Origin: Flammula alnicola
Lineage: Eukaryota; Basidiomycota; Agaricomycetes; Agaricales; Strophariaceae
Direction of reading: 5' to 3'
Assembly (NCBI GenBank): GCA_015499995.1
Contig: JADNRV010000024.1
Location: forward strand, 310,001 to 374,000
Length of the DNA stretch: 64,000 bases
Shown here: in pieces, positions 9,826 to 46,660 of the stretch
How positions within the stretch are numbered: the first letter of the stretch is position 1
How the letters are laid out: each line of letters begins with the position of its first letter
Notes under the pieces: generated by a model
What the model was told of the DNA's origin: nothing
Seen by the model: the letters and a program-made list of their open reading frames with translations, nothing else
Database searches by the model: none
Program-made: the position numbers and the translations under genes

Positions 9826-10091
9826 ATCCTCGATTTTCATCTGTCAAACTAGACGCTCAACTGGATGCAGCATCGCCTTATTGTCTCATTTGATTGTCCG
9901 CCATGTCAACCACATAAAGATAAGTGAAGGCGGTGCAAAGGCGGTGAAATTTAAATAACACGCCTCGCGTCGGGAAAACCCAAATCCCTTGTAAGGCATT
10001 TGAAATTTCAGAAATTTCCGACGCGAGGTTTCCATGCTGTGGTACTTAAACTCTCAGGCCTCAATGTGAGTGGGCCCCCACCTTAGCTGAA

Positions 10092-13000
10092 ATGCTTCCT
10101 TTCGTTCCAAGCTCCTTTGGTGATATCGTCGCCGCCGCTACCCTTGCTCTCTCGATTTACAAAGCTCTCAACGACAGCACGGGATCATCGTACGAGTACC
10201 AGTGCTTGATTAGCGAAGTGCGTTCTTTTCATCATGCCTTGCTGTTCGTGGGCGACGTAATCCGTGCAACTCCCTCCAATGAAACTGTGGCGCAAGATAT
10301 CAAGGTAGAAGCCGCAATGTGTCTCAAATTGCTGGAGAACTTCTGGGATCGTATCAAGTCATACCAGAAGGCTCTCGGCGGTGGCGGACGGAACTCCTCT
10401 TGGCGCAAAATCGGGTGGGGTCTTTTTAAGGCCAACGAAGTTGCGGAGTTCAGACAGAAGCTTTCTCAACGTAAACAAAATCTTACAGTGTTTTTGAGTG
10501 GACTGGGAATGTAAGTTGGATCCCGCACTAAACGTCTTCATCATCACTAATGCTACGCTACCTCAGTTTCTTAACTTCCTACCACGCCGACGGCATTCGA
10601 GAGGCCTTGGCGTCAATTACAACAACAACGAAAGAGATACTCACAATACAGAAGCAACTGCCTCCATCCCTTGGGTATGGTCGTGAAAACGCCGTGATCC
10701 TGATAGATGCATTCGGGAAGCAAATGACGTTGCCAATGGAGTTTTGCTACTCACCAGACGTGCGCCTTTTATGTGCATTTCCTTCTCTACGCTTATATAT
10801 CGCGCACAGAAACTTCACGATCTTCTGATGGGGCACTTCAAGGGAAAGATCGGTCATGACTACGTGATGCAGCACGAATACAGCATTTCCAGTGAGGATG
10901 GCAAGTCGGTCGTAGAGTCTGATCCAGGTGAATGGGGTTCACTGGTGAAGAAAGGGGCGGTTCTTATCATGAGCATGCAGGTAAGGAGGGTACAGCTGGA
11001 GTCGGAGTCTGCTGCGCTTCAGAGGACGACATGTCCACGATGTTACAGAACAGATATTGGTGTGATGCGGGACGAAGGATGGTTAGAGTGGTGAGCGTAA
11101 TTTGCTGTTTTTCCTGGCATTTCATGACAGATTCCAGTCGGCGTTGCGAACGACGCTTCCATTGGGCAGATATGGAAATGTATGAGTATGAGCCACCTTT
11201 GGAGGATCTGAGCATTGTGGACTTCCGCAATATTCAGGTTGTACCAGTCGAACAGGTAAATACAGACATTTGGTAGAGATGCATGTGCAGTATTCTCACA
11301 ATTTCCTTGCCTGTGAGCGTTTCTAGGATGTACGTGAACTTGTTGATTGTGCACCGACCAACCCTCTGACGATTCCGTCTCGCCTGCACACTTCCAGTTT
11401 GTATGTGAACTTGTTGATTGAGCATCGACTGCTCCTCTGATGATTCCATCTTGCTTGTGCATTTCCAGGATGTATGTGGTGAAATTGTTGATTGAGCACT
11501 GACCGCCCCTCTGACGATTCGGTCACACCTGCACATTTCCAGGATGTACGTGAACTTGTTGATTGCACACCAACCAGCCCTCTGACAATTCCATGTCGCT
11601 TGCATATTTCCAGGATGTACGTGAGCTTGTTGATTGCGCACAGACTGGCCCTCTGACGATTCTGTCTCACTTGCACATTTCCAGTTTGTATGTGAATTTG
11701 TTGACTGAGCAATGACCGCCCCTCTGACGATTCGGTGTCGCCTGCACATTTCCAGGTTGTATGTGAACTTATTGATTGAGCACTGACTGGCCCTCTGACT
11801 ATTCTGCCTTGCTTGCGCATTTCCAGAAAGTTAGTGGACTTGTTGCTTGAGCACCGAGCGCCGCTCTGATGATCCCGCCTTGCTTGCACATTTCCAGGAT
11901 GTACGTGAACTTGTTGATCGAGGAATGACCGCCCCTCTGATTATTCTGCCTTGCTTGTGCATTTTCAGACAGTTAGTGGACTTGTTGGTTGAGCACCAAC
12001 TGCCCCTCTGACGATTCCATCTCTCTGGCACATTTCTAGCTTGTACGTGAACTTGTTGATTGAGCACTGACTGCCCCTCTGACGATTCCATGTCGCTTGT
12101 GCATTTCCAGGAAGTGAGTGAACTTGATGATTGAAATTTGAGCACTAACCGGCCCTCTGACGATTCCGTCTCATTGGCTCATTTCCAGCCTGTGCGTGAG
12201 CTTGTTGATTGCACACTGCTCGGCCCTCTGACGATTCCATCTTGCTTGCACATTTCCAGCTTGTATGTGGATTTGTTGACTGAGGACCGATCACCCCTCT
12301 GATGATTCGGTCTCGCTTGCATATTTGCAGGTTGTACGTGAACTTGTTGATTGAGCAATGACAGGCTCTCTGAGACTATTTCGCCTTGATTGCACTTTCC
12401 CAGAATGTCAGTGGACTGGTTGATTGTGCACCGACGGGCCCTCTGATGATTCTGCTTCGCTTGCGCACTTGCAGGTTGTGCGTGAACTTGTTGATTGAGC
12501 ACCAGCCGGTCCTCTGATGATTCCGTCAAGCTTGCACGTTTCCAGGATGTACGTGAGCTTGTTGATTGAGCACTGACCGTCCCTCTGACTATTCTGCGTT
12601 GCTTGTGCATTTCCAGAAAGTCAGTGGACTTGTTGATTGCGCACTGCTCGCCCTTCTGATGATTCCGTCTTGCTTGTGCATTTCCAGGATGTATGTGGTG
12701 AAATTGTTGATTGAGCACCGACCGCCCCTCTGACCATTCGCTCTCACCTGCACATTTCCAGGATGTACGTGAACTTGTTGACTGCGCACCAACTGGCCCT
12801 CTGACAATTCCATGTAGCCTCAAGAGCATTTCAAGGCTGTACGTGAGCTTGGTGATTGCCCACCGACCGTCCCTCTGATGATTTCATCTAGATGTCATAT
12901 TTCCAAGCTGTGCGTGAACTCCTTGATTGAGCACCGCCCGGCCTTCTGACTATTCCACCCTGATTGCACTGCGGCGCATATCCAGAAAGTTAGTGGACTT

Positions 13001-13950
13001 TTTGATTGAGCACCGACAGGCCTCTGACGATTCCGCCTTCCTCTCTCATTTCCAGAATGTACGTGAACTTGTTGATTGCACATTGACCACCGCTCTGACG
13101 ACTCGGTCGCGCCTGCACATTTTCAGGTTGTACGTGAACTTGTTGATTGAGCACCGATCAACGACCATCCCTCTGATGATTCCATCTTGCCTGCGCATTT
13201 CCAGCAAGTAAGTGAACTTTTTGGTTGTGCAGTGATCGTCCCTCTGAGTATTCCGTCTTGCTTGGACATTTCCAGGATGTACGTGAGCTTGCTAATTGCG
13301 CGCCAACCGGCCCTCTGACGATTTCGTCCAGCTTGAACATTTCAAGAATGTGCGTGAACTGGTTGATTGCGCACCGAGCACACCTCTGACGATTCCGTCT
13401 CGCTGGCACATTTCCAGCTTGTACGTGAACTTGTCGACTGAGCACCGACTATCTCTCTGACGATTCCGTCTCATCTGTGCATTTCCAGGCAGTAAGTGAA
13501 CTTGCTGATTGAGCATTTACCGCACCTCTGACGATTCCGTCTCGCTGGTGCATTTCTAGCAAGTACGTTAAATTGTTGATTCAGCACCGACCGCCTCTCT
13601 GACAGTCGGAATCCCTCTGATTTTGTGCACCTCCAGCAAGTATGTGCCTCCGTAACATTGCCAGTCATATTCTATGCTCACTGACCGTGTCTCACCCATT
13701 GCAGTGGGTAAGTACTTCATTTAGGCGTAGCTGAGAATACTCATGTATACTGGCTATCACCTTCCTCCTCTGGGTATGTTCTCAAGCTGAAGGTCACTTC
13801 CATTTGCTTACATGCTTCCATAACATCTTCCAGATTGAACTCGCGCAGGAAGATGCAAAAGCTGACGAAGCCAGTCGATGTGAGTGCTCTGGTAGTCCAT
13901 GCTCGTTTTGTTCTGACAATGTTTATTTAGTTGAGGAAATTCTCCCCTAA
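10092..13950 (+). CDS. Array gene A: helical N-terminus + ubiquitin-like domain + zinc ribbon + single-codon micro-exon array
   Basis: Exon 1 (10092-10510) encodes an N-terminal helical domain (MLPFVPSSFGDIVAAATLAL) like those heading agaricomycete ULD and STAND proteins. Exon 2 (10567-10759) and exon 3 (10810-11090) carry the ubiquitin-like part (ENAVILIDAFGKQMTLP, then KLHDLLMGHFKGKIGHD) and start a zinc ribbon CPRCYRT. Exon 4 (11138-11255) completes it with ECRRCERRFHW and ends VVPVEQ in phase 0. From 11327 to 13707 there follow 34 micro-exons, 33 of exactly 3 nt, each between a GTNNGT donor and an AG acceptor. The last exon (13834-13950) encodes IELAQEDAKADEASR, then a Cys-rich CECSGSPCSFCSDN and EEILP. 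Four-exon, array and last-exon frames all agree. With unit 23 skipped the product is about 408 residues. Its role is unknown; the neighbourhood and N-terminus suggest a recognition or signalling protein, which is inference. Confidence 0.7.
11327..13639 (+). repeat. Tandem intron/micro-exon array A (period 71 bp)
   Basis: Donor positions are 11330, 11401, 11472, 11546, 11617, 11688, 11759, 11830, 11901, 11972, 12043, 12114, 12192, 12263, 12334, 12407, 12478, 12549, 12620, 12691, 12765, 12839, 12910, 12989, 13059, 13130, 13208, 13279, 13350, 13421, 13492, 13563 and 13640. Of the 32 spacings, 23 are exactly 71 and the others range from 70 to 79. A typical unit is GTACGTGAACTTGTTGATTG, a variable middle, CCTCTGACGATTCC, then GCACATTTCCAG and one codon. 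Codons in order by position: GAT 11327, TTT 11398, GAT 11469, GAT 11543, GAT 11614, TTT 11685, GTT 11756, AAA 11827, GAT 11898, ACA 11969, CTT 12040, GAA 12111, CCT 12189, CTT 12260, GTT 12331, AAT 12404, GTT 12475, GAT 12546, AAA 12617, GAT 12688, GAT 12762, GCT 12836, unit 23 at 12908 (2 nt), AAA 12986, AAT 13056, GTT 13127, CAA 13205, GAT 13276, AAT 13347, CTT 13418, GCA 13489, CAA 13560, CAA 13637. A TGG at 13705 follows after a different intron. Confidence 0.9.
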
Positions 13951-14228
13951 GGCGAGACCTTTCATGCTACTGACCTAGATGCTGCTGTAGTCTTACACTC
14001 TCTACTATCTAGATAATTCTATTCCTCCCAGTTTCGCAGTATGTAGTATGCACCAGCACATTGATTGTCAACAAGGTCAACAGTAAATTTCAGAGTTCCT
14101 CATGTGGATGCCAGAACTATGCAAGGCGCAAGTGAGCGTTACTCCGAATATATCGACTGTCCATCTAACAACGATCCTAGTTCTGTGTGATGTAGTGAAT
14201 CCCCCATCGATGATTTACGATGTATCAT

Positions 14229-15455
14229 TCAAGGGCCGGCGATGATCAAACCGATCCTTCCTCGCGCAATCCCAGTAGCGTAAAATAGAATCTCATATAT
14301 GCACATTATCTCAAAGTAACAACAGAATTTACTATCGTTCCACCTTTCGCGGCGCCTTCTCCGGAAACGGCGCTCCTGCATAATTTCTGTCATCGAGATA
14401 GAGAGGATGTGGCGGGCTAGATGAATTTGCTCCCACTGCGTTTCATCCGGTGTCTCCAGCGGCGTTATCCCTTCCGTCGCTCCATCGTTGGTCGCGCTCG
14501 TATTGGCGGTTAATCCCACCGTACGGATCAGATGCCTGCGATGCGTGGTTCGGCGAGACTGTACCCCAGCTGGATAATGCGCGCCGAATTCTGCAGGCGA
14601 TGACTGAGGCTGCGGGGGTGGCGTAACGGCGTAACCCGTCGCTGCGTAGGGATTGGGGGTGTGGTATTGTGAGGGTCTTTGATGCTCGGATCCGGAGCCG
14701 ACTTGCGTCCACGACTGCCCAGGCGACAATGGAGACACGCGGAGCCCGTCTCGTGGCCAGTACCCTTGGTTGATGTTCGAAGCAGCGATGTCGGATGGTG
14801 TTACAGCCATTGGCACCCGCGGATTGACGGGTTGGAAGCCGTATTGCGGTGTACCGGAGGTTTGTGTCATTCCGGGAGTCGTTGGAGGTGTGCCAGGCGC
14901 GCTTGGCACAAAAGGAGGGGCAGGCTTTCGCTGCACTTTTCTTCCTAACGTGTTCGGACTCCCGGGTTGTTCTTGTCCCCTGATCTGCGAGGAAAGCGGT
15001 CGAGGTTGATGATCGTCTGAACCCGTCACTGAAACTGGAGAAAAGAAAAGAGGAAAAGTCATTTTGATAGTTAGAACTGCACAGGGGTCAATATAAGGTT
15101 ACTGTCTGGAGCCCTATAAATTCGGTGACGTGTAACGCCCCTCCCCGTTCTCTCGATTGCAACAACACCCCAGCTTGTACCAGCATACGAGCGCAAGTAG
15201 AAAGACGACCCCCATCCTCGCTATTGCAGGAATGAATAGGTTGTCGTGAACCACGTCGCTTGTCGTCGACATCGCAGCGATCGGGATCGATAGTGGAAAC
15301 TCTGTTGGGAAAGTGTTGTAGTGGCGTCGGTGTCCTCCCGGCATGACCCTTCGATTGGGCTGGCCTGGTTCGGAGTTCCTTAGGATAGCAAAACCACTGC
15401 TCACGAGCGCACCGAAGACTAGGTGGCGGAGGATGTGCATGAAGCAAGAGAGCAT
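14229..15455 (-). CDS. Probable single-pass membrane protein with Pro/Ser-rich tail
   Basis: Exon 1 (15137-15455) encodes a hydrophobic start (MLSCFMHILRHLVFGALVSS) and a clear membrane helix ARMGVVFLLALVCWYKLG followed by CCC. A roughly 100-nt intron (15035-15136) joins in phase 1 to exon 2, which starts SVTGSDDHQPRPLSSQ and continues as a disordered tail rich in P, S, T and Q (PSAPGTPPTTPGMTQ). The tail has a basic patch ERRFRRRRRERW near its end. This architecture is common in agaricomycete surface or sensor-like proteins of unknown function. The 3' end is uncertain: an extra intron after RERWNDS would change the last 35 codons. The start could lie in an upstream exon. Confidence 0.5.
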
Positions 15456-15489
15456 CGTTGGCGCTCTCGATTGACCTGAATGTCCAAAT

Positions 15490-16951
15490 TTACGTTAAGC
15501 CCAGCTTACATTCATGGATGCGAAGTAGGTAACACACTGCTTCTTCTATGTCAATGTCGGAGTCAGGGTGAACTCTGTGGAATTGATTAAGACGATCGAC
15601 ATCAGGCTGGAAAATTATAAGACAGGTCATGATATATATCTTGACGATTTTCCTCCTTGGACAGGGGTTAACCTCAAGAATAGCCTGAGTCTGATGGGAG
15701 AACTTGGGGCAAGAGGTACGACCCAAGAGCACTCTATTTGACTTTGCTTGTCAAGACCTTCAGGACAAAACTGGGCTTCTCCAACCTCCCAGCATGGCCG
15801 CAGCTGGCGATAACCTTTCGCACCTCATTCATTCCAATGCTGTTCCTTCTCTTTCATGAACGTGATTTAGTGCGAGGTTCAATCTCGGAGCGAGACATTT
15901 CAAAAGTGGACTTCAAGACCATTGCCGAACTGCGAAAGACGCTTCACGGACTCGAAAATTGACACAGAGAGCTTACGGAGCGACGAGCAACCTACACCAG
16001 TAGGAAGCGCCTCCAGAACCTGCACGAACCGCGGTGACGCGATGAGAAACTTCGAAAGCTTGCACAGAGCCACAGATTCAGCTCATCCCACATGTAAGGT
16101 TGAGCTTCTCGGCTGGATGAATCGCTTCATCGTATGAGGTGAATAAGGAAGGAGGCGAAAATGTCGACGGCGTATGGTGTATGAGAAGGACATGGCCTGC
16201 TGAGCTCCGTGGTCGACGTGGTAGGCATTGAGCAGGCTGTCGACTGTCAACCTAGTCTCTCCTGACAGACCATAAGCGTAATTTAGAGTGGATTCCCACG
16301 GGTACTTATTTTTGTTTCTAACATCAGTGGCATTGTCAATCATATCCTTGAGGCAAGCAGCTCAAAAAAGCGTTAGGTACTCAATAGTGAGAGGTGCATA
16401 TCTACATTGTCATTGATGGTTTCGTCCTTCTCCTCAAAAACCGACTGTCCAGCATCAAAAGCGTCCAAAGGTACTTCGACGCGACTTGTCCCTCCCACCT
16501 TTTTGCAGAGTTATCCACATATCTTCTGAATAATTGCAAGGTGTGCCTTCATCCTATGATCCATATTCTCACCGCATTAACTTCTAGGTTAGTAAGGAAC
16601 AGTGCGGGACGTTCCCATCTCCGATTTTATCCCATTTCTAATGGCTCGGAGGCGTGTCAGTCTGTCTTTTAACGTACCTTTATGGAGCAAGAACTTGGAC
16701 GGTGATCTAAAATCAGTGGTTTCGAATCGTTCTCCGTGCATTGGATCTTTCCCTCATTCATTTTTTCGGTGGTCCCAGTTGACTTTTTCAACATTAATGT
16801 CATGATCTCCACACGGGACAACACGTTCTCTGAGTCGATCTTTTCTGTCCAGGCTGACCTGTGGTTCAGCTTCAGTCAATCCATAAAGTGTATATTTATT
16901 GATGGCTCGAACTAATTCTCTCTTTCTGACTACGACATCGCTCCAGCTCAT
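15490..16951 (-). pseudogene. Unidentified coding remnants, possibly one decayed multi-exon gene
   Basis: Several minus-strand blocks look coding. At 16860-16951 there is MSWSDVVVRKRELVRAINKY. Near 16700-16740 is GERFETTDFRSPSKFLLHKG. At about 16395-16480 is TSRVEVPLDAFDAGQSVFEE. At 16083-16350 there are DMIDNATDVRNKNKYPWES and LTVDSLLNAYHVDHGAQQ. At 15490-15600 is PDSDIDIEEAVCYLLRIHEC. An intron with a CCTAAC branch site at about 16345-16405 would join two of them. An in-frame stop before the 16480 block (CG, stop, LCKK) suggests decay. I do not recognise the family and cannot build a complete frame. Confidence 0.3.
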
Positions 16952-17075
16952 ATAAAACTCGAAGACTACCTTGGTTCCACACCTAACCTAAAAACCAATC
17001 TGTATCATGAGACACGGACGAAAAAAATCGAGCAATACTAGACCTACAGAAAAAACAGCACATTGAGATATGACT

Positions 17076-17578
17076 TTAAGTCTGCTTGTTGCAGATGAAA
17101 GATTCAATGTTGTCGTAAAGGCCCGGGGGGAGTTGGTTAACGGTTCCAGAGAGCAGAGTCCCAGAACCCTCGCAACCTTGAAACCTAGAATAACGAGTAG
17201 AAGTGATTAGTTATATGACACAAGAATCCCCCCTCCCCCCAGGAGTACTAATACGCACCCATAGAATGTGCACGCGAAACCTGAGCCGATCTTGACACTC
17301 TCGGGTCTGTCCAGCCAATGAGCAGGGAGCGTGGTGCACACACCCTGTACGAGGGAATCGGGGGAGAAGCTTGCGCCAGTCAAGTTAACGTCGTCAAAGA
17401 AAATGACGGACAATTCGGCAAGTTCACTCTGGTGGGTGTTATAGGGGATGATGAGTTGAATGCAATAACAAGAGGGACATAAATGAAATCTTACGCGAGC
17501 GATGACGGCCGCATGGGCAGAGAATGCAGAGGCTGCAACAGCCAAAAGCAGACTGGCGAACTTGGCGTTGAAGTACAT
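17076..17578 (-). CDS. Small secreted cysteine-containing protein
   Basis: The ATG at 17578 opens a signal peptide MYFNAKFASLLLAVAASAFS (cleavage likely after AHA). Exon 1 ends AVIAR at about 17495. A 66-nt intron leads to exon 2 (SELAELSVIFFDDVNLTG, then VQGVCTTLPAHW and GFACTFYG), ending near 17259. A further intron of about 70 nt joins in frame to FQGCEGSGTLLSGTVNQLPP and ends FICNKQT with the TAA at 17076-17078. The mature protein is about 95 residues with four cysteines, so two disulfides are possible. Secreted proteins of this size in mushrooms may be effectors, surface or cell-wall proteins; no family is recognised. Confidence 0.7.
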
Positions 17579-18061
17579 GTTTGTGAGATGAGATTGAGGC
17601 TTGTAAAAGAGTTTGTTGGTTTAGCAAGTCGATTGAGCTGCTGAAGTCTTGAAGAGAATTTGACCTCCTTTTTATACTGTTTGAAGCAGGAGACAGGAAT
17701 CTTGGAAAGATATATGGGCTGTCGTGTCGATCACCCTTGACTTCGACTGAGGAGAAATCAAAGATAATATTCGCGATGAGTTCGGTTCCAGTATCAGAGG
17801 CGTCCGAGAAACTGGATAAGACTAAGAATCCGTACTGAGTGTGGTCGGCCACTAGCAATCATGTATCCTGTCTGATTTTGCACTTGACTTTCGCTTCCTG
17901 CGGCATCGCTGCACCATACCCGCTCGAAATTTATAAGTCAGTTGGCACAAGTTGGCAAGACCTTTTCTCGTGTGTTGGCCCTTTCGACCACATCTGTCAA
18001 TTTGTTCCATTCTTGTAATACTGTAGTAGCTATTTATTTATGTCCTTGAAAGCCGTGAGAG
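17579..18061. other. Upstream region of the small secreted protein
   Basis: No gene seen. AT-rich just upstream of the ATG, as expected of a promoter. Confidence 0.4.
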
Positions 18062-19459
18062 GTGGATTGGCAGAAGGTCAGTCTCCTTTACAGAAGGTGG
18101 CTTTGCCATGGGCCTTGGGACAGATTTGTATGGCTTCGCGGATTCTCAGGCGGCAACAGTGACGAGCTCGATGCCTCCGAAAGAGAAAAATGCGTAGACG
18201 AATGTCTAAGCGAAAGCCGCAAAGCCTCCGATGAAAGCTTGGCCGTCGTGAAAATTAGATAAACCCTTGAATGACAAGACATTAACAACAACGCTCTCAA
18301 GTCAGTGGAAGACAATCGACCAGCACATACCCGACCAGGATGGCCTTTGCCTCCTGTCCAGTCGAACATCAAGCCTACGATAAATAAGAAGATGATCATT
18401 ACTACTTTGATCATAGCAAACCAGTATTCGTATTCGCCTACATACACGCCAGTCAGCGTAAGTATGGAAGCAGAAATAACACAGACGAACCATAGACTTT
18501 GACGTGTATCAACTGTAACGCGAATATGGGGACAATGATGATGAGGACCCAATGCCACGTCTGTAAGGTTTGAGTCCAGAACTGCAAAATTACAGCGGCG
18601 GCGGTCAATTCGCTTGCTAAACCGAACGTTAACACATGCGTAATTACAAAGCAGATTATCGATGCAGAATGGACTTACGTATTGAGAGAGTCCTGAAAAG
18701 TCATATTATTTCAGCTCGCTGGATGTATCTAAAGAATCTCGGCACACCACTGCAACCAGTAATTCAAACCTAACAATATCAAAGATAGCCTATCACACGA
18801 GGTACAGATGAAAGATTGCATACCAAGAGTGAACCCTAGTGCTGGTGAGACGAGTCGTGTTCCAAACACGGAGAAGGCGCCAGATACCGGATACATTGAG
18901 GATATTTTGCCACTGAGATGTAAATATGCATAGCCGTTATTCGCTGAGTCCATTGAGTAGTTTCGACGATGCGAAAGATCACTTACAGAGTGATAACAAC
19001 CGTGTATACGAACAACCCAACGACAAAGTAGGACAGTAAAGCACTGCCAGGACCAGCCAGAGCAACGGCCTAGCACGCGACTTGCAAATAAATAATTAGG
19101 AAAGAGCTTTGTTATGGCGGTAAGGAAGAAACATACAGATCCTGCACTCAAGAATATTCCTGTGCCAATTGTGCCCCCGATAGCTGTTGGTTGAATTTTC
19201 AAGGTGAGCACGCAGGGTACTAGGACTTCAAGTACGAAAATAACCCACCAATCATCACGAGATGTCGGCTCTGCGTTGCACGCCGTGTTTCGTTTCCATC
19301 CTCAGCGTCCAGTCTCTTCCAAAACCCGAGTTTCTTTTCAGGGATGCCATTCGGTTTCGGAAGATCCTTCGAGTACGCCTCAGAAGTACTTTCTTCTTTG
19401 AGGATACTCGACCTGGTGGAAGGCGGCCTTTCTTGAAGTTGTAGCCCGTCAGAATTCAT
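18062..19459 (-). pseudogene. Amino-acid permease (AAT/YAT family), truncated pseudogene
   Basis: The 5' part is good: MNSDGLQLQERPPSTRSS, a cytosolic tail, then RHLVMIGG joined over a short intron to AIGGTIGTGIFLSAGS, the family's conserved TM1 signature. GKISSMYPVSGAFSVFGTRL is the TM3 signature; LNYWLQWCAEI, ASELTAAAVILQFW and GEYEYWFAMIKVVMI follow in order. In the exon FHDGQAFIGGFAAFA-TFVYAFFSFGGIELV a TAG (18206-18208) replaces one codon, and a TGA (18146-18148) replaces another in VTVAA-ESAKPYKSVP. A frame change follows near 18110 and the second half of the transporter (roughly TM7-12) is absent. Such proteins import amino acids at the plasma membrane; this copy cannot. Confidence 0.8.
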
Positions 19460-23532: not shown

Positions 23533-25796
23533 ATGCTTCCCTTCGTTCCAAGCTCCTTTGGCGATATCATCGCTGCCGCCACTCTTGCTCTCTCAATTTA
23601 CAAAGCTCTCAACGACAGCACGGGAGCTTCATACGAATATCAATGCCTGATCAGCGAACTGCGTTCTTTCCATCGCGCCTTGCTATTCGTGAACAACGTA
23701 ATCGGTGCAACTCCCCCTAACGAAACTGTGGTGCAGGATATCAAGGAAGAAGCCGCAACATGTCTCGAATTGCTGGAGAAGTTCTGGGATCGTATCAAGT
23801 CGTACCAGAAGGCTCTCGGTGGTGGCGGGCGGAACTCCTCTTGGCGCAAAATCGGTTGGGGTCTTTTTAAGACCAATGAAGTTGCGGACTTCAGACAGAA
23901 GCTTTCTCAACATAAACAAAATCTTACAGTGTTTTTAAGTGGAATGGGAATGTAAGTCGGATCTCGCACTAAACGTCTTCATCGTCACTAATGCCATGCT
24001 ACATCAGTTCCTTAACTTCCTACCACGCCGACGTCAATAGAGAGACCTTGGCGTCAATAAGGAAAGAGATACTCACAATACAGGAGCGACTACCTCCATC
24101 CCTTGGGTATGGTCGTGAAAACGCCGTGATCCTGATGGATGCATTCGGGAAGTCGATGACGTTGCCAATGGACTTTTGCTACTCACCAGATGTACGCCTT
24201 CTATGTGCATTTCCTTCTATACGCTCATATACCAGGCACAGAAACTTCACGATATTCTGATGCTGCACTTCAAGGGAAAGATCGGTCACGACTATGTTAT
24301 GCAGCGCGAATACAGCATTTCCAGCCAGGATGGCAAGGCAGTCGTAAAGTCTGATCCAGGTGAATGGGGTTCAGTGGTGAAGAAAGGGGCGGTTCTCGTC
24401 ATGAGCATGAAGGTGAGGCGGGTAAAGCTGAAGTCAAAGTCTGCTACGCTTCAGAGGACGACATGTCCACGATGTTACAGAACATATGTTGGTGTGATGC
24501 GGGATGAAGGATGGTTAGAGTGGTAAGCGTAATTTGCCAATTTCCTTTCATTTAATGACCACTGCATTCTAGTCGGCGTTGTGAACGACGTTTCCATTGG
24601 GCAGATACGGCAATCCATGAGGATAGTAAGCCACCTTTGAAGGATCTGTCCATTGTAGACTTCCGCAATATCCAGGTTGTGCCAGTCGAACAGGTAAATA
24701 AGGCATTTGGTTGAGATACATTTGCAGTATTCTCACAATTTCCTCGCCCGTCAGCCTTTGCAGTTTGTACGTGAACTTGTTGATTGTGCATCGACCAGCC
24801 CTCTGACGATTCCGTTTCGCTTGGACATTTCCAGCCTGTACGTGACCTTGTTGATTGAGCACCGACCGGCCCTCTGACAATTCCATGTCGCTTATGCATT
24901 TCAACAGTTTGTACGTGCACTTGTTGATTGAGCATCGGCCGTCCCTCTGAGTATTATGTCTCGCCTGCCCATTTCCAGATTGTACGTGAACATGTTGACT
25001 GAGCACTGGCCGGCCCTCTGACGACTCCGTCTCGGTTGCGCATTCTAGAATGTACGTGAGCTTGTTGATTACGTGTCGGCAGGCCCTCTGACGATTCCGT
25101 CTCGCTTGCGCACTTCCAGATTGTACGTGAACTTGTTATTGCTTGAGCACCCACCATCCCTCTGACGATTCCGTATTGCATGCACATTTCCAGCGAGTAC
25201 GTGAACTTGTCGATTGATTATAGACTGTCTCTCTGACGATTCCATCTCATCTGCACATTGCCAGCTTGTACGTTAACTTGTTGATTGAGTACTGACTGTC
25301 CCTCTGACAATTCTGTCTTGTCTGTACATTTCCAGGAAGTAAGTAACTTGTTGATGAGCACCAACTGCCCTTCTGATGATTCCATCTCATGTGCACATTT
25401 CCAGATTGTATGTTAACTGGTTAATTGAGCACTGACCGCCTCTCTGACAATCACAATCACACTAATTTTGTGCACCTCCAGCAAGTATGTGCCTCCCCAA
25501 CATTGCCACTCATATTATATGCTCACTGACTGTGTCTCACATGTTGCAGTGGGTAAGTATTTCATTTTAGGTGTAGCTGAGAATGCTCATGTGTACTGGC
25601 TATCTCCTTCCTCCTCTGGGTATGTTCTCAAACTTAATGCGGCTTCCATTTGCTTACATACTTTCATAACACCTTTCAGAACGAACTCGGGCAGCGTGAG
25701 GCAGCAGCTGACGAAGCTAGTCGATGTGAGTGTTCTGGAAGCCCATGCTCGTTTTGTTCTGACAATGTTCATGCAGTTGAAGAAATTCTCCCCTAA
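23533..25796 (+). CDS. Array gene B: paralogue of gene A with a short micro-exon array
   Basis: Same plan as gene A. Exons are 23533-23951, 24008-24191, 24242-24522 and 24573-24693 (ending VVPVEQ), 12 micro-exons, then 25680-25796. N-terminal domain MLPFVPSSFGDIIAAATLAL; ubiquitin-like part with ENAVILMDAFGKSMTLP; zinc ribbon CPRCYRT and CRRCERRFHW. The last exon reads NELGQREAAADEASR, CECSGSPCSFCSDN and EEILP. Exon lengths sum to whole codons (335, then 12, then 38), giving about 385 residues. Between the copies, the stretch CECSGSPCSFCSDN differs only by synonymous changes, which argues that the last exon is translated and that the GTGAGT inside it is not used as a donor. No disabling change is visible. 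Confidence 0.7.
24764..25552 (+). repeat. Tandem intron/micro-exon array B (12 units)
   Basis: Donors are at 24767, 24838, 24911, 24982, 25052, 25123, 25197, 25268, 25339, 25408, 25485 and 25553, with spacings of 68-77 (71 in five cases). Codons by position: TTT 24764, CCT 24835, TTT 24908, ATT 24979, AAT 25049, ATT 25120, CGA 25194, CTT 25265, GAA 25336, ATT 25405, CAA 25482, TGG 25550. All are exactly 3 nt and none is a stop. All donors fit GTNNGT and nearly all units keep CTCTGAC or CTCTGAT before a pyrimidine-rich acceptor. The final CAA and TGG positions match the final two of copy A; the rest do not. Confidence 0.9.
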
Positions 25797-26248: not shown

Positions 26249-29228
26249 TTATGATCCGCCACAGCTAGAACCACCACCGCCACCGCAGCTGGAGCTTCCA
26301 CCACAGCTAGATGCACCCCCTCCACCGCAAGTAGATGCGCCTTCTCCACTGCTTCCTCCACAGCTGGACATACCTCCTCCGCCACAACTAGACGCGCCTC
26401 CTCCACCACAAAATGAAATGGCTTCCCCTCCTACACTTGCTCTTGCTGTGCGTCCGCCATTACTTCTTGCACCACGACCCGATGTGCGTCCGCCATTGCT
26501 TCCTGCACGACTTGCCGTGCGTCCGCCATTTCTTCTTGCAGAAGTGGATACACGACCTCCGCCACTGCCTTCAGCACCGCTGGAAAGCCCACTTCCGCTA
26601 CTCGCCGATCCACAGCTGGATAGACCACTTGCGCCTCCTTCAGACCCACCGCCGCACTATAAGTTATCAGAAAGAGAAAGTAAAATCAGCTTCCTGTTAT
26701 AGGTATTGCAGAAGAAAGACTCACGCTGCCACAACCTGCCACCGGAGTAACCGAACCGCCTCCTAATGCAACACAGCCTGAATCGACTGACGTAGCACCC
26801 TTCGCGAAGTAGAGGGGTACAGGAACTAGAAACGGTGTGTCGTATGTGTGATCACGAGCGGATCCATTCCCAGCCCTGCTGACGGATGCAGCATGTAGGC
26901 GGCTGTGCGCCGTGCCAGGATATCCTCCCGCCTGTTGCTTTGCGGTCTTCTGAGCTGCTTCCGCTACAGCCTGCCTCCTCTTCATTGCAAGCTGGCCGTA
27001 GCGCAGTGTATTAATCTTCTGGACCCGTGCACTCTCTGGTATAAAGCGCACTGCGTTGTGATCACTGGGATGCGTGGCGCATAGTAAATCTGGGCGATCC
27101 GAGAAGGGCATAAGGTGGGACGGTGGAGGAGGAGCGTAGATCTTAATAAGTCGTGTCAGGCGCTGACCGATGGTAGTGCCTGGGACGGGACATCCACAAT
27201 GGGTATACTGGACATTGAAGCGTTCCTGCCAAGCTTGGCCAGTGATGTCAAATCCCGACGATAGTTTAAGGCCCTCGACTTTATCATCACTAAATTATAA
27301 CCATCAGCCAGAAAATTTTAGGATGTATCAGACACGTACTGGTCGATGAAACGTCCAACATAGGTATTGCAATCAGCCTCATATCTAGTGGCCAGAAGTT
27401 GATGGGTATGCCAGACGAGGTCAATGTCGAGAGTCGGAACGAAGAAAGAGCCGGGTGATGAGGCTAGCAGATCTAAGAATCTGTAAGGACCGTCAGCGTG
27501 CATTTATATGAGAATCAGGAGGAGAGCTTACGCATGGTAACGCGACAATGCATGCTGAAGTGCCAATTCATCGCCTGGCCCGTCGAAAAATCCAGGGTGG
27601 GTCCACCCAAGCTCGTGCATCTTTTCAACAAACGATCCTTGACGAAGGACCTATTGGTGGGATGTTAGATTGAGGTAAACGGTAGGGTATCAGGGCGACA
27701 AACTCACCGCACCAACTAGTTCGACCGAGTAAACCTTGTCGTCGCTATACGCATCCAGGATCCTTCGGAGTCTACAAAATGGAGGTGGTCAAAAAGATCG
27801 TCGGAAATTTATTCAATCAATCTCACAATCGGTCTTGGGTCGGCTTATTACTATCATTAGCCATGAGCGCTCTCAGTTTTGGCAAGGAGTATTCCGCCAA
27901 CTTCATGATTGCAAGGCAAAGCTGTTCCGAGCACCCAGGATCTGTGGATGGAAGCCACTTAGATGCAGGTTGCGAGGCAATCGCAGCTTTGCAGACTCGT
28001 GCTTTAATCTTGTTACTCGCTTCGGCGTCGGCTTGGGACGAAGGACTGAAAAGAGTGCCACTGCGATTGGGAAGGCTATAAGATCATGCACATAGATAAA
28101 GACATGCGGGACAGACGCACGGCAGATGTCCAGTAGGTGTTCCAGCAGGAGCCACGAGGTCCTGGGCTAGTTTCCGAAGACCAAGTGTGCCTTTCGTTAT
28201 CTCTTTGATGCTAACTCTGATGGTACAAGGCAGCTGGTAGCAGTGGGCGGAGAACTTCTGCTGTAGGTATCCGGTCCCTCCTTCATGCATAAGCTCTTGA
28301 GGGAAATGATTAGATCGCAAAGCCTGATTACGCCTATGGTTGAGGCTTACCAACTTCGACACGGCTGCGACATTGAGGGCAAGGAATAATCTTCTTGTTC
28401 AGGTTACGAGTTTTCAGGCCTTCGATAGGGTCAAATGGGAGAGCGGTTCGCTGGCGCCAAAAGTCAAGCCGAGCTTCGGAGGGAGGCACAGACAAAATAG
28501 CATGAAAATGTAGCTTTTCGAATAATTGTTCAGATTGATAGACAGTTCATTATTTGCATGACTTACGAGAGCTTTGGTAAAGTGGACTCCCAGCTCCTTC
28601 AAAACTGCGCAAGCCGGAACTCGCAGACAGTCTTCTGCGTACCATCTGCGCCATGGAAATAAGGAACGGCGCTCGTATATTTTACAGAAACTTAAAAGTC
28701 CGTACCGAGGATTAAGCATATAAGCATGCCATACCTAAATAGAAGAAATGAGTTTCAAAGCAAATGCGTTCCGAGAGATGCTTTTAATCTACCATGATGA
28801 CATCTATCGGGGGTAGGATAATTTCCATAGGTTCATTCCTAGCGTCTTTAGCCTTCAAGTTGTGACACCATATATCGAAGCTATTAAGCATCCCAAATTA
28901 AGGTATCAAGGTGGATTTAACACGAGAAGGCAAGCAACACACACCGTTCGACTGCAATTCCTACGAACCAACTCCATCGCCTCTCATTATCGGAAGGCAT
29001 GTGCTCTGCGACAATTTTTGATGCAGTGACGTCGTTCTTCAGCTGGGCAAAAGAATGCAAGAGCGCTAGATGGTCTTTGACTTCGGCCACCTTGACGAGG
29101 GGCTCCGTCGTTCGAGTAGATCCAATAGCAAAAGTGGTCGGAGCATGGTAACTTGGGAGTTCCCTATCCACTTCACCGGGTCGCCCAGAAAGCGATTTGT
29201 AGTAGGAAGGTGGAGGAGCGTCGGCCAT
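26249..29228 (-). CDS. Glycine-rich-domain protein (DUF1399), copy 1
   Basis: The start MADAPPPSYYKSLSG at 29228 matches that of copy 2. Exons follow in frame: RRWSWFVGIAVER, FDIWCHNLKAKDARNEP, then PPIDVIMVWHAYMLNPR, the DUF1399 signature. After KKIIPCPQCR comes ELMHEGGTGYLQQKF, then FSPSSQADAEASNKIKARVC, RRILDAYSDDKVYSVELVG, RQGSFVEKMHELGWTHPGFF and the second signature TLDIDLVWHTHQLLATRYE. The C-terminal part (YPGTAHSRLHAASVS) leads to a Gly/Ser/Cys-rich tail with repeated SSCGGGG units, stopping at 26249-26251. Plant relatives are called GRDPs; the fungal role is unknown. Introns are short and all checked joins keep frame. It appears intact. Confidence 0.8.
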
Positions 29229-29938: not shown

Positions 29939-32900
29939 CTAACATCCACCACAGCTTGAGCCACCGCCACCGCAGCTGGAGCCTCCACCACAACTAGATG
30001 CACCACCTCCACCGCAACTAGACGCACCCCCTCCGCTGCTCCCTCCACAGCTGGATACACCTCCCCCACTGCTCCCTCCACCACAGTTCGAGCCATTAAT
30101 CGATCCACAGGTCGACAGACCACTTGCGCCTCCAGACCCACCGCCGCACTATGAAGAAGAAAATGGGAATTAGTTTTCTTTTACACACATCCTAAGGAAA
30201 AGACTCACGCTACTACAACCTGCAACGGGATTAACCGCACTGCCTCCAACCGCAACACAACCGAGGGGAGGGCCCGTTGAATAGTAGAGAGGTACAGGAA
30301 CTAGGAACGGCGTGTCGTACGTATGGTCACGCGAGGGCTGGAAAGCAGGTCTGTTGCCAGACCTACTGCAGCGTGCAGCGTGCAGTCGGCTGTGCGCCGT
30401 GCCAGGATATCCCTTTGCCTCCTGCTTTGCAGTCTTCTTCGCTGCCTTCTCGGCAGCTCGCGTCTTATCCAGCGAAAGCTGGGCATAACGCAGTGTATTA
30501 AGCCTATGGGCCCGAGCATTTTCTGCTATAAAGCGCACTGCATTGTGGTCACTGGGATGCGTGGCGGATAGCAGATCTGGGCGATCCGAGAAGGGCGTGA
30601 GATGGGATGGTGGGGGTGGTGCGTATATCTTGATGAGGCGCGACAGTCGCTGGCCGATGCTAGTCCCTGGTACAGGACATCCGCAATGAGTATATTGGAC
30701 GTTGAATCTTTCTTTCCAAGCTTGGCAAGTGATGTCAAATGCCGAGGATAGTTTAAGGCCCTCGACTTTATCATCGCTAAATTATAAATATCAGCAAGAA
30801 AATTTTAGGATGCATCAGACACGTACTGGTCGATGAATCGTCCAACATATGTATTGCAATCAGCCTCATATCTATTGACCAGGAGTTGGTGGGTATGCCA
30901 GATGAGGTCAATGTCGAGGGTCGGAACGAAGAAAGAGGCGGGCGACGACGCCAGCAGGTCCAAGAATCTGTAAAAACGGTCAACGGGTATTTATACGGGG
31001 ATCTGGAAGAGAGCTTACGCGTGGTAACGGGACAATGCATGTTGAAGTGCCAACTCATCACCTGGCCCGTCGAAAAATCCCGGTTGGGTCCACCCAAGCT
31101 CGTACATCTTTAAATCAGTGTTGGACCTAAGGCTTAACCCTTAATAAGGTTTAAGGGTTAATTTCATTCTAAGACTAAGGGTTAATATCACTCACCATTC
31201 AATTTAAGCCTTAAGTTAAGCCTTAATAAGAGTAACACAGCCACAGATTTTGGCTCGAGCACACTGTCCTTCAGCACGGAGTGCTTTTGTGCGTCAAAAT
31301 TTCTTATCACCAGTAAATACTACTTCTTAGGGATGAATAGGTGCAAAAAATCGGGTAAATACCATCTAGAAAATAGCATTCATGGTGAACATTGATGACT
31401 AGACAGAAAGAAACAGATATTGACGTTCAGATGAGACGGATACGGTGACGCAACACATTCACGGAGGAGGCGAGACTGATGGAGCTGATGGCAGATGAGG
31501 AAGCAGAGGAAGAAAGGATACCAGATGACAGAGAACTGGAAGGTTCGGGTGACAATTTTGATGGCTGACGAAATCGGTCAGTTTCTAGCTGAACTCTTAA
31601 TAAGGCCTTAGAATAAAGTCTTAATTAAGGGTTGTTTTTAACACTTAAGACTTAACAAAAAAAAATGCCCTTAATAAGGCCTTAGAATCCAACACTGCAT
31701 CTTTTCAACAAATGAACCTTGACGCAGGACCTAAGGATGGGACGTTAGTCCCAGGTACTTAAAAGATATTGTAAACTCACCGCCCCAACCAGCTCAACTG
31801 AGTAGACCTTGTCGTCGTTATATGCATCCAGGATCCTTCGAAGTCTAAAAAATCAAGCCGGTCAAAAACGTTATAAGGAGATCGTCCAGTCAATCTCACA
31901 GTCGGTCTTGGGAAGCCTTATTGCTATTAGTAGCCATAATCGGTCTCAGTTTCGACAAGGAGTAGCCCGCCATCTTCATGATTGCAAGACAAAGCTGTTC
32001 CGAGTACCCAGCGCCTGTGGATGGAAGCAATTTATGTGCAGGTTGCGAGGCGATCGCAGTTGCGCAGACTCGTGCTTTAATCTTGTCGCTCGTTTCGGCA
32101 TCAGCTGGGGACGAGGGATTGAACAGAGTTCCTCTGCGGTTAGGAACGTTAGGAATGTCATGCACATATATAATGAAGACATGTAGAGCATACGCACGGA
32201 AGATGTCCGGAAGGTATTCCAAGTCCAGAGGAAGCAACCAGGTCTTGAGCTAGTTTCCGAACTCCAAGGGTCTCTTTAGTTATCTCTTTGATGCCACAGG
32301 AGGAGTGGTAGCAGTGGGCGGAGAATTTCTGTTGTAGGTATCCGGTCCCTCCTTCATGCATGAGCACTTGAGGGAAATAATTAGCTCGAGATATTTTATT
32401 ATAGGCCTGGTTCAGACTTACCAATCTCTACAGGCTTGCGACATTGAGGACAAGGGATGATCTTCTTGTTCAGATTACGGAGTTTCATACCCTCGATGGG
32501 GTCGAATGGGAGAGACGTTCGCCTCTGCCAAAAGTCAAGCCGGGCTTGAGAAGGAGGCGCAGACAATATCATATGGAACTGTGACTTTTCGAAAAGAGGT
32601 TCATATCAGGAGGCCATTACTTGTAGAGGATTTATATTACTCACGAGAGCTTTGTCAAAGTGGACTCCCAGCTCCTTCAAAACTGCGCAAGCTGGAACTC
32701 GTGAGCAGTCTTCTGCATACCATCTGCGCCATGAAACAATATGAGCAGCGCTCGTGATTATTTTTGGCGCAAAGTTCATACCGAGGATTCAGCATATAAG
32801 CATGCCAGACCTGTGTAAATACAGTCAGTAAGTTTGATGTCGGGTGCGTTTCGAGAGACGCTTCGAATCTACCATTATGACGTCTATCGGAGGCATAATA

Positions 32901-44812: not shown

Positions 44813-46057
44813 TCAACTAAAGCGTACAAATCCGTCGGACTGTGGGTATGTCCATGACTCTTCTCGCGGAGCTCCACTGCCGCTCGTGCTCGCGTGACCG
44901 ACCTCTGTCCAGGGCGGCGTTGCGGGGTTATCGTGCGCGTCCTCCGGTAAGAAAGGGCTGGACACCGATAAATGCGAGCGTCGCGAGCCCTCTGACGCCC
45001 CATCCTCCCGCACAGCTATCTCAGGGATCGTCGTTAACGGGTTCTTCCCCTTGAGGACAGCGGCAGCAGCGGGACGCGGAAACCCTTTTCTTCTCGGCGC
45101 ACTGCGATTCCGCCCCACGTCCGGGGCGACGAAGCGATATCGCTTGTAATAACTGGGGCGAGATGCGGCGTATCCGTTGTTCGACGCGTCGGACATCTCG
45201 GGTGGGGGAAGGTCGCGCGACGTGTACTCCTCTTCTTCGCGTAGGCGTTGGCGGCGGCGCCAGTACCAATAGATACCGCCGATAACGAGAAGCCCGAAAA
45301 TGGTGCAGACGAGGCCGAGTGCGATTGAGAGACCAGTCTTGGCCGTGTGTGGGTGGGAGGCGGTCGCGGAGCCTGCGGTGGGTGAGGATATAACGGAACT
45401 TGACGTGGAAGTCATCGATAACGTGGAGGATGAGGTTAACGTAGATGAACTCGGGTCTTCGAAAACGGTGTACCTGGTGTAGAGAAAGGTTATACGGGTG
45501 AAACATGGGCAAAAAAGGTCGGGTGACGTACTGCAAACCGTCGACAATGGCAAGATTACGACCAGCACCGATGGAGATCACTAATGTATGTTGGGTGTTG
45601 TCGAGGCCGTCTCTGAACCAGACGACTTGTGATTGTGACGTCTCTGGGGCACCTTCGACGACGGGTTGACTGTGATCCCTAAGGTCGACGAGCTCCGAAT
45701 TTGTACCATCGAGAGAAATGGCCGTCGTCATTCTGAATGGCCATAGCGGAGACCAGAAATATATTGCAACGCCTGGCAAGGAAAGATTTCATATTAGAGA
45801 TGCAGGGGTTGACAGACAATAGGATAAATATGATACGTACCTGTAAACGTGAATGTCGCTGTAGCGGCCTCGTCCGACGTAACTGTATGCTGGCCTCCTG
45901 AGTCCAGGGCATCGAATGCCGTCTGCTGCCAACTGCCTGGTGGTTCGTAGATGATCAGAGCTGTATCGCCATCGTCAACCGTAACGTTAAAGTCGGCTTT
46001 AACGGCGATGAAGAGGCAACATAGTAGCCAGACGAGAACAAGAGCTCGCAACCCCAT
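44813..46057 (-). CDS. Type I single-pass membrane protein
   Basis: Exon 1 begins with a signal peptide MGLRALVLVWLLCCLFIAVK, then a beta-rich ectodomain (ADFNVTVDDGDTALIIYEPP) typical of agaricomycete carbohydrate-binding-like surface proteins. An intron near 45777-45840 leads to VAIYFWSPLWPFRMTTAISL and GRNLAIVDGLQ. A second intron near 45477-45532 joins to YTVFEDPSSSTLTSSSTLSM, a Ser/Thr-rich stalk. The membrane helix is GLSIALGLVCTIFGLLVIGG, followed by YWYWRRRQRLREEE and a disordered cytosolic tail ending QSDGFVRFS. It may be a wall-stress or surface sensor by architecture only; function unknown. Confidence 0.75.
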
Positions 46058-46660
46058 ACTATTGACAACGGAGAACTGAGAATTCTGGATCAGTCTTCAC
46101 CGACCTTCACCGTCTAGATCGCAGTCATGTCCTCGTTGGAGAAGGGTAAGCTGTTGGTTGTCGGTGTGAAGATGTGCGTGTGCCGTGGGTTGTGTTTGGC
46201 TCGCCCAGCCTTGCCCTTGGGAATTTGGTCATAATCACAATCTTCTTTCCAACCACTCTCACAATGTCAGTCTGTTGCTGCCACCCTCTGCCACCTCACA
46301 CATGCAGCATGCTATAGATGCAACGCAATAACAACTCTTCTTACAGCCGACTTTCATCTGGAAAAAAACCGAGGTGAGCTCGTTGGAACCTTATCAAGGA
46401 GCTTGGCGGGCTAGACTTGTGTTTCGGCATCACAGTTGTTATAACGGCCCGAAGATACGTGCGGTCGTCGCTCTCCAACAAAAATTCCGGGCGAGAACAC
46501 GAGCAAGAGAAGCCAGCATTTGGTATTTTTATTCCAGAAAGAATTCTTTTGTGTCAGTCGAACATCTTATCAAAGATAGCCTGTAGAAGCAGAACGCTGA
46601 CTGGTCATGGTCTAGCCTTGACAAATATAATCGTCCAATAGACGGCGTCGTTGCAACACA
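46058..46660. other. Divergent promoter region
   Basis: Shared upstream region of the membrane-protein gene (minus) and the F-box gene (plus). Only short, implausible open frames. Confidence 0.4.

Follow-up and report, generated by a model that had tools for sequence, protein, structure and literature searches.

We analysed a window of 64,000 nucleotides (nt) of DNA from Flammula alnicola and focused on one gene, gene A, in which a long tandem array of intron-like units lies between the fourth exon and the last two exons. The array region (window 11256-13833) is part of contig C157 in a genome of 74.4 Mb. The array has the anatomy of splice sites, phase 0, no stop codons, a contrast between codons and introns, and a confinement to one gene family as far as searched. 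We give a probability of about 0.74 to the reading that its 33 single codons, each standing between consensus splice sites, are spliced in frame into the mRNA of this ubiquitin-like-domain gene, where they are predicted to encode a variable C-terminal tail.

Gene A lies on the plus strand. Exon 1 (10092..10510) encodes a helical N-terminal domain and was placed by its open frame, the donor GTAAGT and the paralogue alignment. Exon 2 (10567..10759), with the end of the helical part and the start of the ubiquitin-like domain, was placed by the paralogue alignment and the joined frame. Most of the ubiquitin-like domain (ULD_2, PF22893; Pfam E 5e-17) and the first CxxC of a zinc ribbon are in exon 3 (10810..11090), which has the splice flanks AG/GTGAGC. 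Exon 4 (11138..11255) carries the second CxxC and ends with VVPVEQ in phase 0, according to the paralogue alignment and the joined frame. The first intron of the array region (11256..11326, plus strand) reads GTAAAT...TTTCTAG in the sequence and is outside the 71-nt family. Its donor GTAAAT was the same in 10 of 10 aligned copies, gene A counted.

The array (11327..13636, plus strand; tandem array score 1821) consists of units of about 71 nt, each made of a 3-nt codon and an intron of about 68 nt (GTNNGT...CTCTGAC...TTTCCAG). Its codons were D F D D D F V K D T L E P L V N V D K D D A, followed by a decayed unit and then K N V Q D N L A Q. The decayed junction, AAG-CT-GTGCGT with only 2 nt (12905..12909, plus strand; letters ccAAGctGTGCGT), was found in the junction listing and in the interior-anchored search described below. 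We infer that the unit is probably skipped there as one intron of about 147 nt, as the frame would otherwise break. The micro-exon CAA (Q; 13637..13639, plus strand) was read from the sequence and is followed by an intron of different sequence. The micro-exon TGG (W; 13705..13707, plus strand) was the final array codon in the copies whose array end was read, and W was also present in the protein record P0011. The next-to-last exon, IELAQEDAKADEASR (13834..13879, plus strand), is in the frame of exon 4 and is kept in the paralogues. The last exon, (F)EEILP and the stop, was placed by the joined frame (13931..13950, plus strand). Exons 1-4, the 33 codons and the last two exons formed one open frame ending in ..VVPVEQ-DFDDDFVKDTLEPLVNVDKDDAKNVQDNLAQQW-IELAQEDAKADEASRFEEILP. 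This bore out the claim of an earlier note on this DNA that all the introns are in phase 0 and the flanking exons in one frame.

Junctions and codons of the array

Gene A had 34 junctions from 11325 to 13703. The spacing AG-NNN-GTNNGT was present in 33 of them, as the earlier note had counted, and the 2-nt junction in one. Its statement that no codon is a stop was likewise correct (0/33). In the array, AG-3nt-GTNNGT occurred 33 times on the plus strand and 3 times on the minus strand. In 500 Markov-1 simulations of the array, such patterns numbered 0.37 on average and never more than 3, which ruled out chance motif density as the cause. The window without the arrays of gene A and of a second copy, gene B (60,552 bases remaining), had counts of 15 (plus) and 13 (minus).

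A pattern of AG-3nt-GT finds what it asks for, so the count was repeated with the intron interior as the sole anchor. A DNA search with the array itself and with a consensus of two units gave counts that are lower bounds, with 134 matches of the two-unit query in 13 loci: four on C157, four on C53 (one broken), and C643, C479, C560, C239 and C323. AG-3nt-GTNNG was found at 192 of 200 junctions in these 13 arrays, near-identical copies included. Two of the eight other junctions were the 2-nt junction common to gene A and its 99% copy, and one was a 2-nt junction in the broken C239 copy. In the remaining five, the interior match ran into the junction; by eye, a 3-nt codon was present in four of these and the fifth was empty. 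Another four gaps could not be judged because of their length. The codon-to-codon distance was 38 to 78 nt, apart from three longer gaps with a missed junction.

In 22 units of 71 nt from gene A, donor bases 3 and 4 varied and bases 1, 2, 5 and 6 were constant. The earlier note had described this pattern of fixed and variable positions. However, the 22 units had been picked by a pattern that fixed bases 1, 2 and 5 and allowed T or C only at base 6, so the interior-anchored search is the unbiased test. When six arrays were taken together, base 6 varied in 2 of 80 units.

Codons and introns were then compared in six non-redundant arrays, with the codons of C53_76, C239 and C323 left out. In 80 units of 71 nt, codon bases 1-2 were off consensus in 78/160 cases and intron positions 7-65 in 514/4720 (odds ratio 7.8, p 2.8e-31, which is nominal as the units are related). 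In C53_26, the array with the most alike introns, the values were 31% for codon bases 1-2 and 3.7% for the intron. Within arrays, intron interiors were on average 66-86% alike, whereas codons were 34-51% alike per base, which is close to unrelated. The upstream codon was common to 19% of the 115 intron pairs that were at least 90% alike, and introns of C53_26 that were identical over the compared interior flanked CAT or AAT. The column entropy was 1.88, 1.70 and 1.03 bits for the codon. One intron column reached 1.53 bits, and the rest were at most 1.2.

The third base followed a rule. It was T or A in 119 of 127 codons, and the others were six TGG, one CCG and one CTC. Thus, the codon varied freely, as the earlier note had it, at bases 1-2, but base 3 was almost fixed as T or A among synonymous codons. 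Among two-fold codons, base 3 was T or A in 66/66 micro-exons against 52/124 in exons 1-4 of gene A (p 1.6e-18). Stops were absent (0/127). The ratio of NAT to NAA was 26/29 when the first base was A, C or G and 7/0 when it was T, so that TAA was avoided (one-sided p 0.009). This contrast between codon and intron, the third-base rule and the absence of stops are expected if the codon is translated and its last base is also donor context; we see no reason for them in a neutral minisatellite. We conclude that the array codons very probably act as micro-exons and are translated into a C-terminal tail of variable sequence. The proposal in the earlier note of functional splice units that each add one residue to a strongly variable peptide was supported by the contrast, the third-base rule and the relatives described below, which is an argument from comparison and not from transcripts.

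A side observation concerned the donor. In the six arrays, donor base 4 was mostly A with codons ending in A or G, and C or T was more often found with codons ending in T. This pairing possibly reflects a link of the donor context to the third base, or a shared descent of units.

Codons were also kept by place. At the same place, 16/20 codons were identical between C53_44 and C643 and 21/21 between C157_382 and C53_126, against 5-6% off place. Between C53_44 and C643, the best-matching intron was the same-place intron in only 8/20 cases. Codons that are kept in place and introns that are alike within arrays would fit an exchange that is tolerated less when it replaces a codon, and equally a selection for new residues.

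The following mechanism may be proposed. The introns, each of normal fungal length, would be removed one after another, and the 3-nt exons would join the growing upstream exon. Because the repeat is an intron and exactly one codon, unequal exchange within the intron would add, remove or swap residues with frame and splicing intact. The exchange would keep the introns alike, and the codons would stay different through a selection that acts on the peptide to favour diversity, to oppose homogenisation, or both. The tail may serve as a changeable recognition or specificity element, which is the least certain step.

Gene copies, relatives and predicted product

Gene body exons, with the ubiquitin-like domain and the CxxC zinc-ribbon motif, were found at 12 of the 13 loci. 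At C323 there was a fragment of the array alone, with no gene exons in the 10 kb around it. The ratio of nonsynonymous to synonymous substitution rates (dN/dS) of the gene body was 0.23-0.49 (15 pairs from six copies, C157_382 not in the set), and the gene body is under purifying selection. The last exons were read in 10 copies, and in 9 of them they carried the frame on. In four of these (A, C53_126, C53_26 and C53_44) the frame was followed to the stop by script, and in five (B, C643, C479, C560 and the 99% copy of A) by eye, with a 12-nt in-frame addition in C643, C479 and C560. In C157_382, the last exons were present, and an indel close to where exon 1 ends broke the body frame. In the 99% copy of gene A, the last exons were about 3.8 kb beyond the array, with an extra stretch of about 3.65 kb (C157:296889-300543) in between. 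One array gene occurs nearly unchanged on three contigs, C643, C479 and C560; these copies may be assembly duplicates, haplotypes or recent copies.

Gene B is the second copy in the window (23533..25796, plus strand). Its 12-codon array (codons 24764-25552) reads F P F I N I R L E I Q W, and the array tail is FPFINIRLEIQW. A counterpart of gene B in L015 (C53:70000-78700) was in pieces over about 8 kb, apparently through insertions. C157_382 and C53_126 had one and the same tail, DKRIYLNIYEEKLNIVRLEQW. The tails of C53_44 and C643 were NNRYPRGHILAGQLVRLEQW and NIRYGRGHPLAGQLVRLEQW, respectively. The tail of C53_26 was HIKKY, a 33-nt extra exon (TVNIQLVPVKK) and HIHKNKDKYYKKLLKW. Inside this array (L012 6845-8369, C53:26845-28369), a block of 104 nt consisted of a 33-nt exon from the end of exon 4 and the 71-nt first intron. 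The block reads in frame as TVNIQLVPVKK, which indicated that blocks were copied together with codons.

For other genera, the comparison drew on protein records. Their ends were back-translated and the fit to the Flammula unit was scored against 300 shuffles. The Galerina marginata record P0008, with the end ..GKCVCELVDPSLPATLTVPSFFLISSLYVSWLIEHSLSL, matched at 89/111 positions when fitted to two micro-exons at a spacing of 71 nt (fit 0.80, best shuffle 0.62). One unit was found in Psilocybe cyanescens P0010 (fit 0.68, best shuffle 0.62), and a 7-residue unit start was found in Galerina P0006 (fit 0.94, best shuffle 0.89). These Galerina and Psilocybe gene models appear to read into an array structure of the Flammula type. 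In P0011, a JGI record on a 1486-base contig, there was no break at the usual intron places of the gene over 289 residues. The record is therefore cDNA-like and was taken as the spliced transcript of a relative. It reads FRNIRILLVER-SLL-W-VELVELLALARRREKWCQAEAEEANRFVEIS, that is, the end of exon 4, three residues, W and the last exons (VELVEL..EANRFVEIS). By eye, P0053 and P0055 were like Russula vinacea P0015 and could be back-translated as AG|(A/G)AA|GTATGT and CTCCAG|TNT|GTATG, which we note as a lead only.

A Pfam scan of gene A, covering exon 1 to part of exon 3, gave ULD_2 only. The zinc-ribbon motif CPRC..CRRC in the gene body was named by eye. No NACHT or ANK match was found at E up to 1 in P0001, P0006, P0008, P0014 and P0011, and the nucleotide-binding domain of NLR/STAND receptors (NACHT or NB-ARC) was not found in this part of gene A or in these five protein records. 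PF17111 (PigL_N), which we take to be a STAND-type N-terminal domain, scored 29.2 bits in P0006 against a cut-off of 27.2 and just below it, 27.0, in P0008. P0001 had 18.6 and P0011 had 12.5; P0014 was unlisted. The N-terminal helical bundle of the protein may resemble cell-death and NLR coiled-coil domains. The fold model was that of P0001, whose last residues are a misread end, and the tail is outside the model. A Foldseek search of this model against the PDB gave no match at E <=0.001, and its best rows were mostly ubiquitin-like folds.

Alternative explanations and known systems

Several observations weighed against a translated micro-exon tail. Gene A holds one frame-breaking junction, and its frame is also kept if the whole array is skipped. 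One unit of C157_382 and C53_126 has an intron of 42 and 35 nt, respectively, and may not splice. Substitutions between paired arrays, given for codon and then intron bases, were 0/63 and 41/1103 (P about 0.09), 7/60 and 140/1091 (equal to the intron rate), and 0/99 and 12/1962, so that purifying selection on the codons is not proven by these counts alone. The back-translation fit failed for several records: shuffles were as good in 10/300 cases for Gymnopilus P0012, 50/300 for Phlegmacium P0007 (a 3-residue end), 111/300 for ENA P0009, 256/300 for P0053 and 252/300 for P0055. The source name of P0011 is odd (ribosomal protein S14), and its residues SLL need not be separate exons in its own genome. 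A tail-only protein search with residues 190-289 of P0011 found P0011 alone among 160 candidates. The likeness to cell-death and NLR coiled-coil folds (HeLo/MLKL/CC four-helix bundle) was within the chance range for helical bundles.

The alternative that survived best keeps the micro-exons as real but makes their use combinatorial, with any donor joined to any downstream acceptor and many tail isoforms. We regard this as possible but somewhat doubtful. The donors and acceptors are alike and in phase 0, and the frame is therefore preserved whichever two 3-nt units a skip connects. In addition, the available passages of three papers (PMC4986451, PMC3689799, PMC10197012) describe micro-exons of codon size (3 bp) in Tuber melanosporum as alternatively spliced; they cite Iotti et al. 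2012, Fungal Biol 116:261-275, and two of the three name the nank (NACHT-ANK) family for them. However, the place-specific agreement of codons suggests that their order matters, which fits a constitutive inclusion equally well. A still more tentative proposal, which we think unlikely, is a hypervariable recognition tail of single-residue exons, in which a free choice among 33 in-frame units would give a very large peptide repertoire per cell or hypha. This would be a splicing-based receptor diversity in Basidiomycota independent of that in Tuber.

The earlier note knew of no fungal array with one codon per exon. It was mistaken in this, as the Tuber records cited above have codon-sized micro-exons in NACHT-ANK genes. 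As far as these passages describe them, the nank genes are like the Flammula gene in their multiple 3-bp exons, an expanded fungal family and a recognition context; in Flammula, a series of 3-nt exons between canonical introns is likewise present, known by sequence only. They differ in that Tuber is an Ascomycete with NACHT and ankyrin, whereas the Flammula gene belongs to Basidiomycota, has ULD_2 and a zinc ribbon with no NACHT/ANK match, and carries its array near the C-terminus.

A second alternative is a minisatellite within one large intron, from the donor of exon 4 to the last acceptor, whose splice-like motifs would be functionless relics of an ancestral intron. The tandem arrangement with alike introns would agree with this, and the public model of gene A (P0002) was seen by eye to omit most of the array. 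We consider it improbable given the contrast between codon bases 1-2 and the intron, the third-base rule, the absence of stops, the 3-nt spacing at 192/200 junctions and the SLL-W of P0011.

Slightly less probable again is an invasion of the introner type, in which near-identical introns were inserted between the codons of an existing continuous tail, the codons having no shared ancestry. Identical intron interiors that flank different codons (CAT, CAT and AAT in C53_26) would be explained in this way, and intron likeness and codon identity were nearly uncorrelated within arrays (r -0.18 to 0.09). However, the unit was found at 13 loci only, 12 of them with the gene body, and blocks carried codons along: GAT-GAT at 11469 and 12688 had the same 74-nt unit, and C53_26 had a CAT-ATT block. 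In four of the six arrays, the nearest intron of another array shared the codon in 4-5 of 19-20 cases against 1.1-1.5 expected; genes A and B, with 1 each, were not clear. An insertion at every codon boundary and nowhere else is also hard to imagine. Dispersed units in unrelated genes were not seen with the array and two-unit DNA queries (a lower bound), and a dispersed introner was rejected. The introner-like elements of PMC4457414, in the part of that text covered, are similarly near-identical introns in many copies; the Flammula introns differ in that the searches made placed them in a single gene family and at a single position.

A coding array of another kind, as a minus-strand repeat protein or a plus-strand read-through, is very improbable and was rejected: minus-strand open stretches reach 234 codons across the array, but the plus-strand reading meets stops in the units (partly by eye), and most units are 71 nt with lengths that differ by non-multiples of 3 within and between arrays, so that the frame shifts from unit to unit. 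Structured RNA was rejected with no Rfam match at the gathering score in window 10000-14500, and no tRNA or tmRNA was found in the whole window. A plasmid-borne array was rejected as well, since megablast against the plasmid collection gave no match.

In schistosomes, micro-exon genes (MEGs) generate protein variants from strings of short exons; their exons have several codons, and their proteins are secreted. A series of short exons is common to both systems, and in Flammula these are single codons in repeats of one unit. Other comparisons can be drawn within fungi, limited to the parts of the texts covered. The WD, ANK and TPR repeats of fungal NLRs are kept alike by exchange, with few codons per repeat diversifying and with length polymorphism (PMC4986451). 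There the repeat unit is coding, whereas the Flammula unit is nearly all intron and would express one codon. In Trichoderma, Xlr2 has a single functional micro-exon, and functional micro-exons were said to be undescribed before in filamentous fungi (PMC11121469). P450 genes of Phanerochaete have micro-exons of 2-10 residues (PMC1184071). These exons are very short and from filamentous fungi, as in Flammula; those of the P450 genes have at least 2 codons, and neither case is described as a tandem array in the text covered. In the covered part of PMC4014442, the micro-exon term was used only for an aligner setting. Among the matches listed from the open PMC literature, there was no report of such a structure in Basidiomycota or of the Flammula gene family; subscription papers are outside this scope.

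If a tail of single-codon exons is indeed made in Flammula, it would be a second fungal family, from a different phylum and with a different domain architecture, in which each exon supplies a single residue of a variable peptide. It would point to a recurrent way to diversify recognition proteins, with an intron and one codon as a frame-safe recombination cassette, by which the fungus could alter a protein tail by single residues. The spliceosome would face an exacting task, with at least 30 consecutive 3-nt exons to join. Such a tail would also explain why the public models of the family end wrongly in Flammula and probably in Galerina and Psilocybe, as automatic annotation is not designed to string 3-nt exons together.

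Probable allelic counterpart and neighbouring sequences

Contig C53 was collinear with C157, with an identity of 95% at window 45000-50000 and 89% at 14200-19200. In 500-base steps, the identity was 98% at 17200 and went down to 74% at 15200. Upstream of window 10000 there were short or weak C53 matches only, in a comparison that covered about 3 kb of C53 upstream of the gene. C53_44 lies at the place of gene A and is thus probably its counterpart in the second nucleus. Its tail, of 20 residues, was wholly different from that of gene A. Old, divergent alleles of one locus would account for this, or alternatively a rearranged gene cluster. At its 3' end, gene A resembled C53_26 (98%) more than C53_44 (91%), which points to exchange between copies.

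A proline-rich open reading frame (ORF) on the minus strand (window 14229-15500) is convergent to gene A and has an apparent hydrophobic stretch upstream. Similar DNA was found at C53:28865, C53:46193, C157:301024, C157:380573 and C53:124044, beside five other array copies, so a partner gene may travel with the array gene. Further along the window, a minisatellite of one motif was present in two copies (26294-26540 and 29946-30086), each beside one of two alike ORFs on the minus strand (26689-27294 and 30173-30781).

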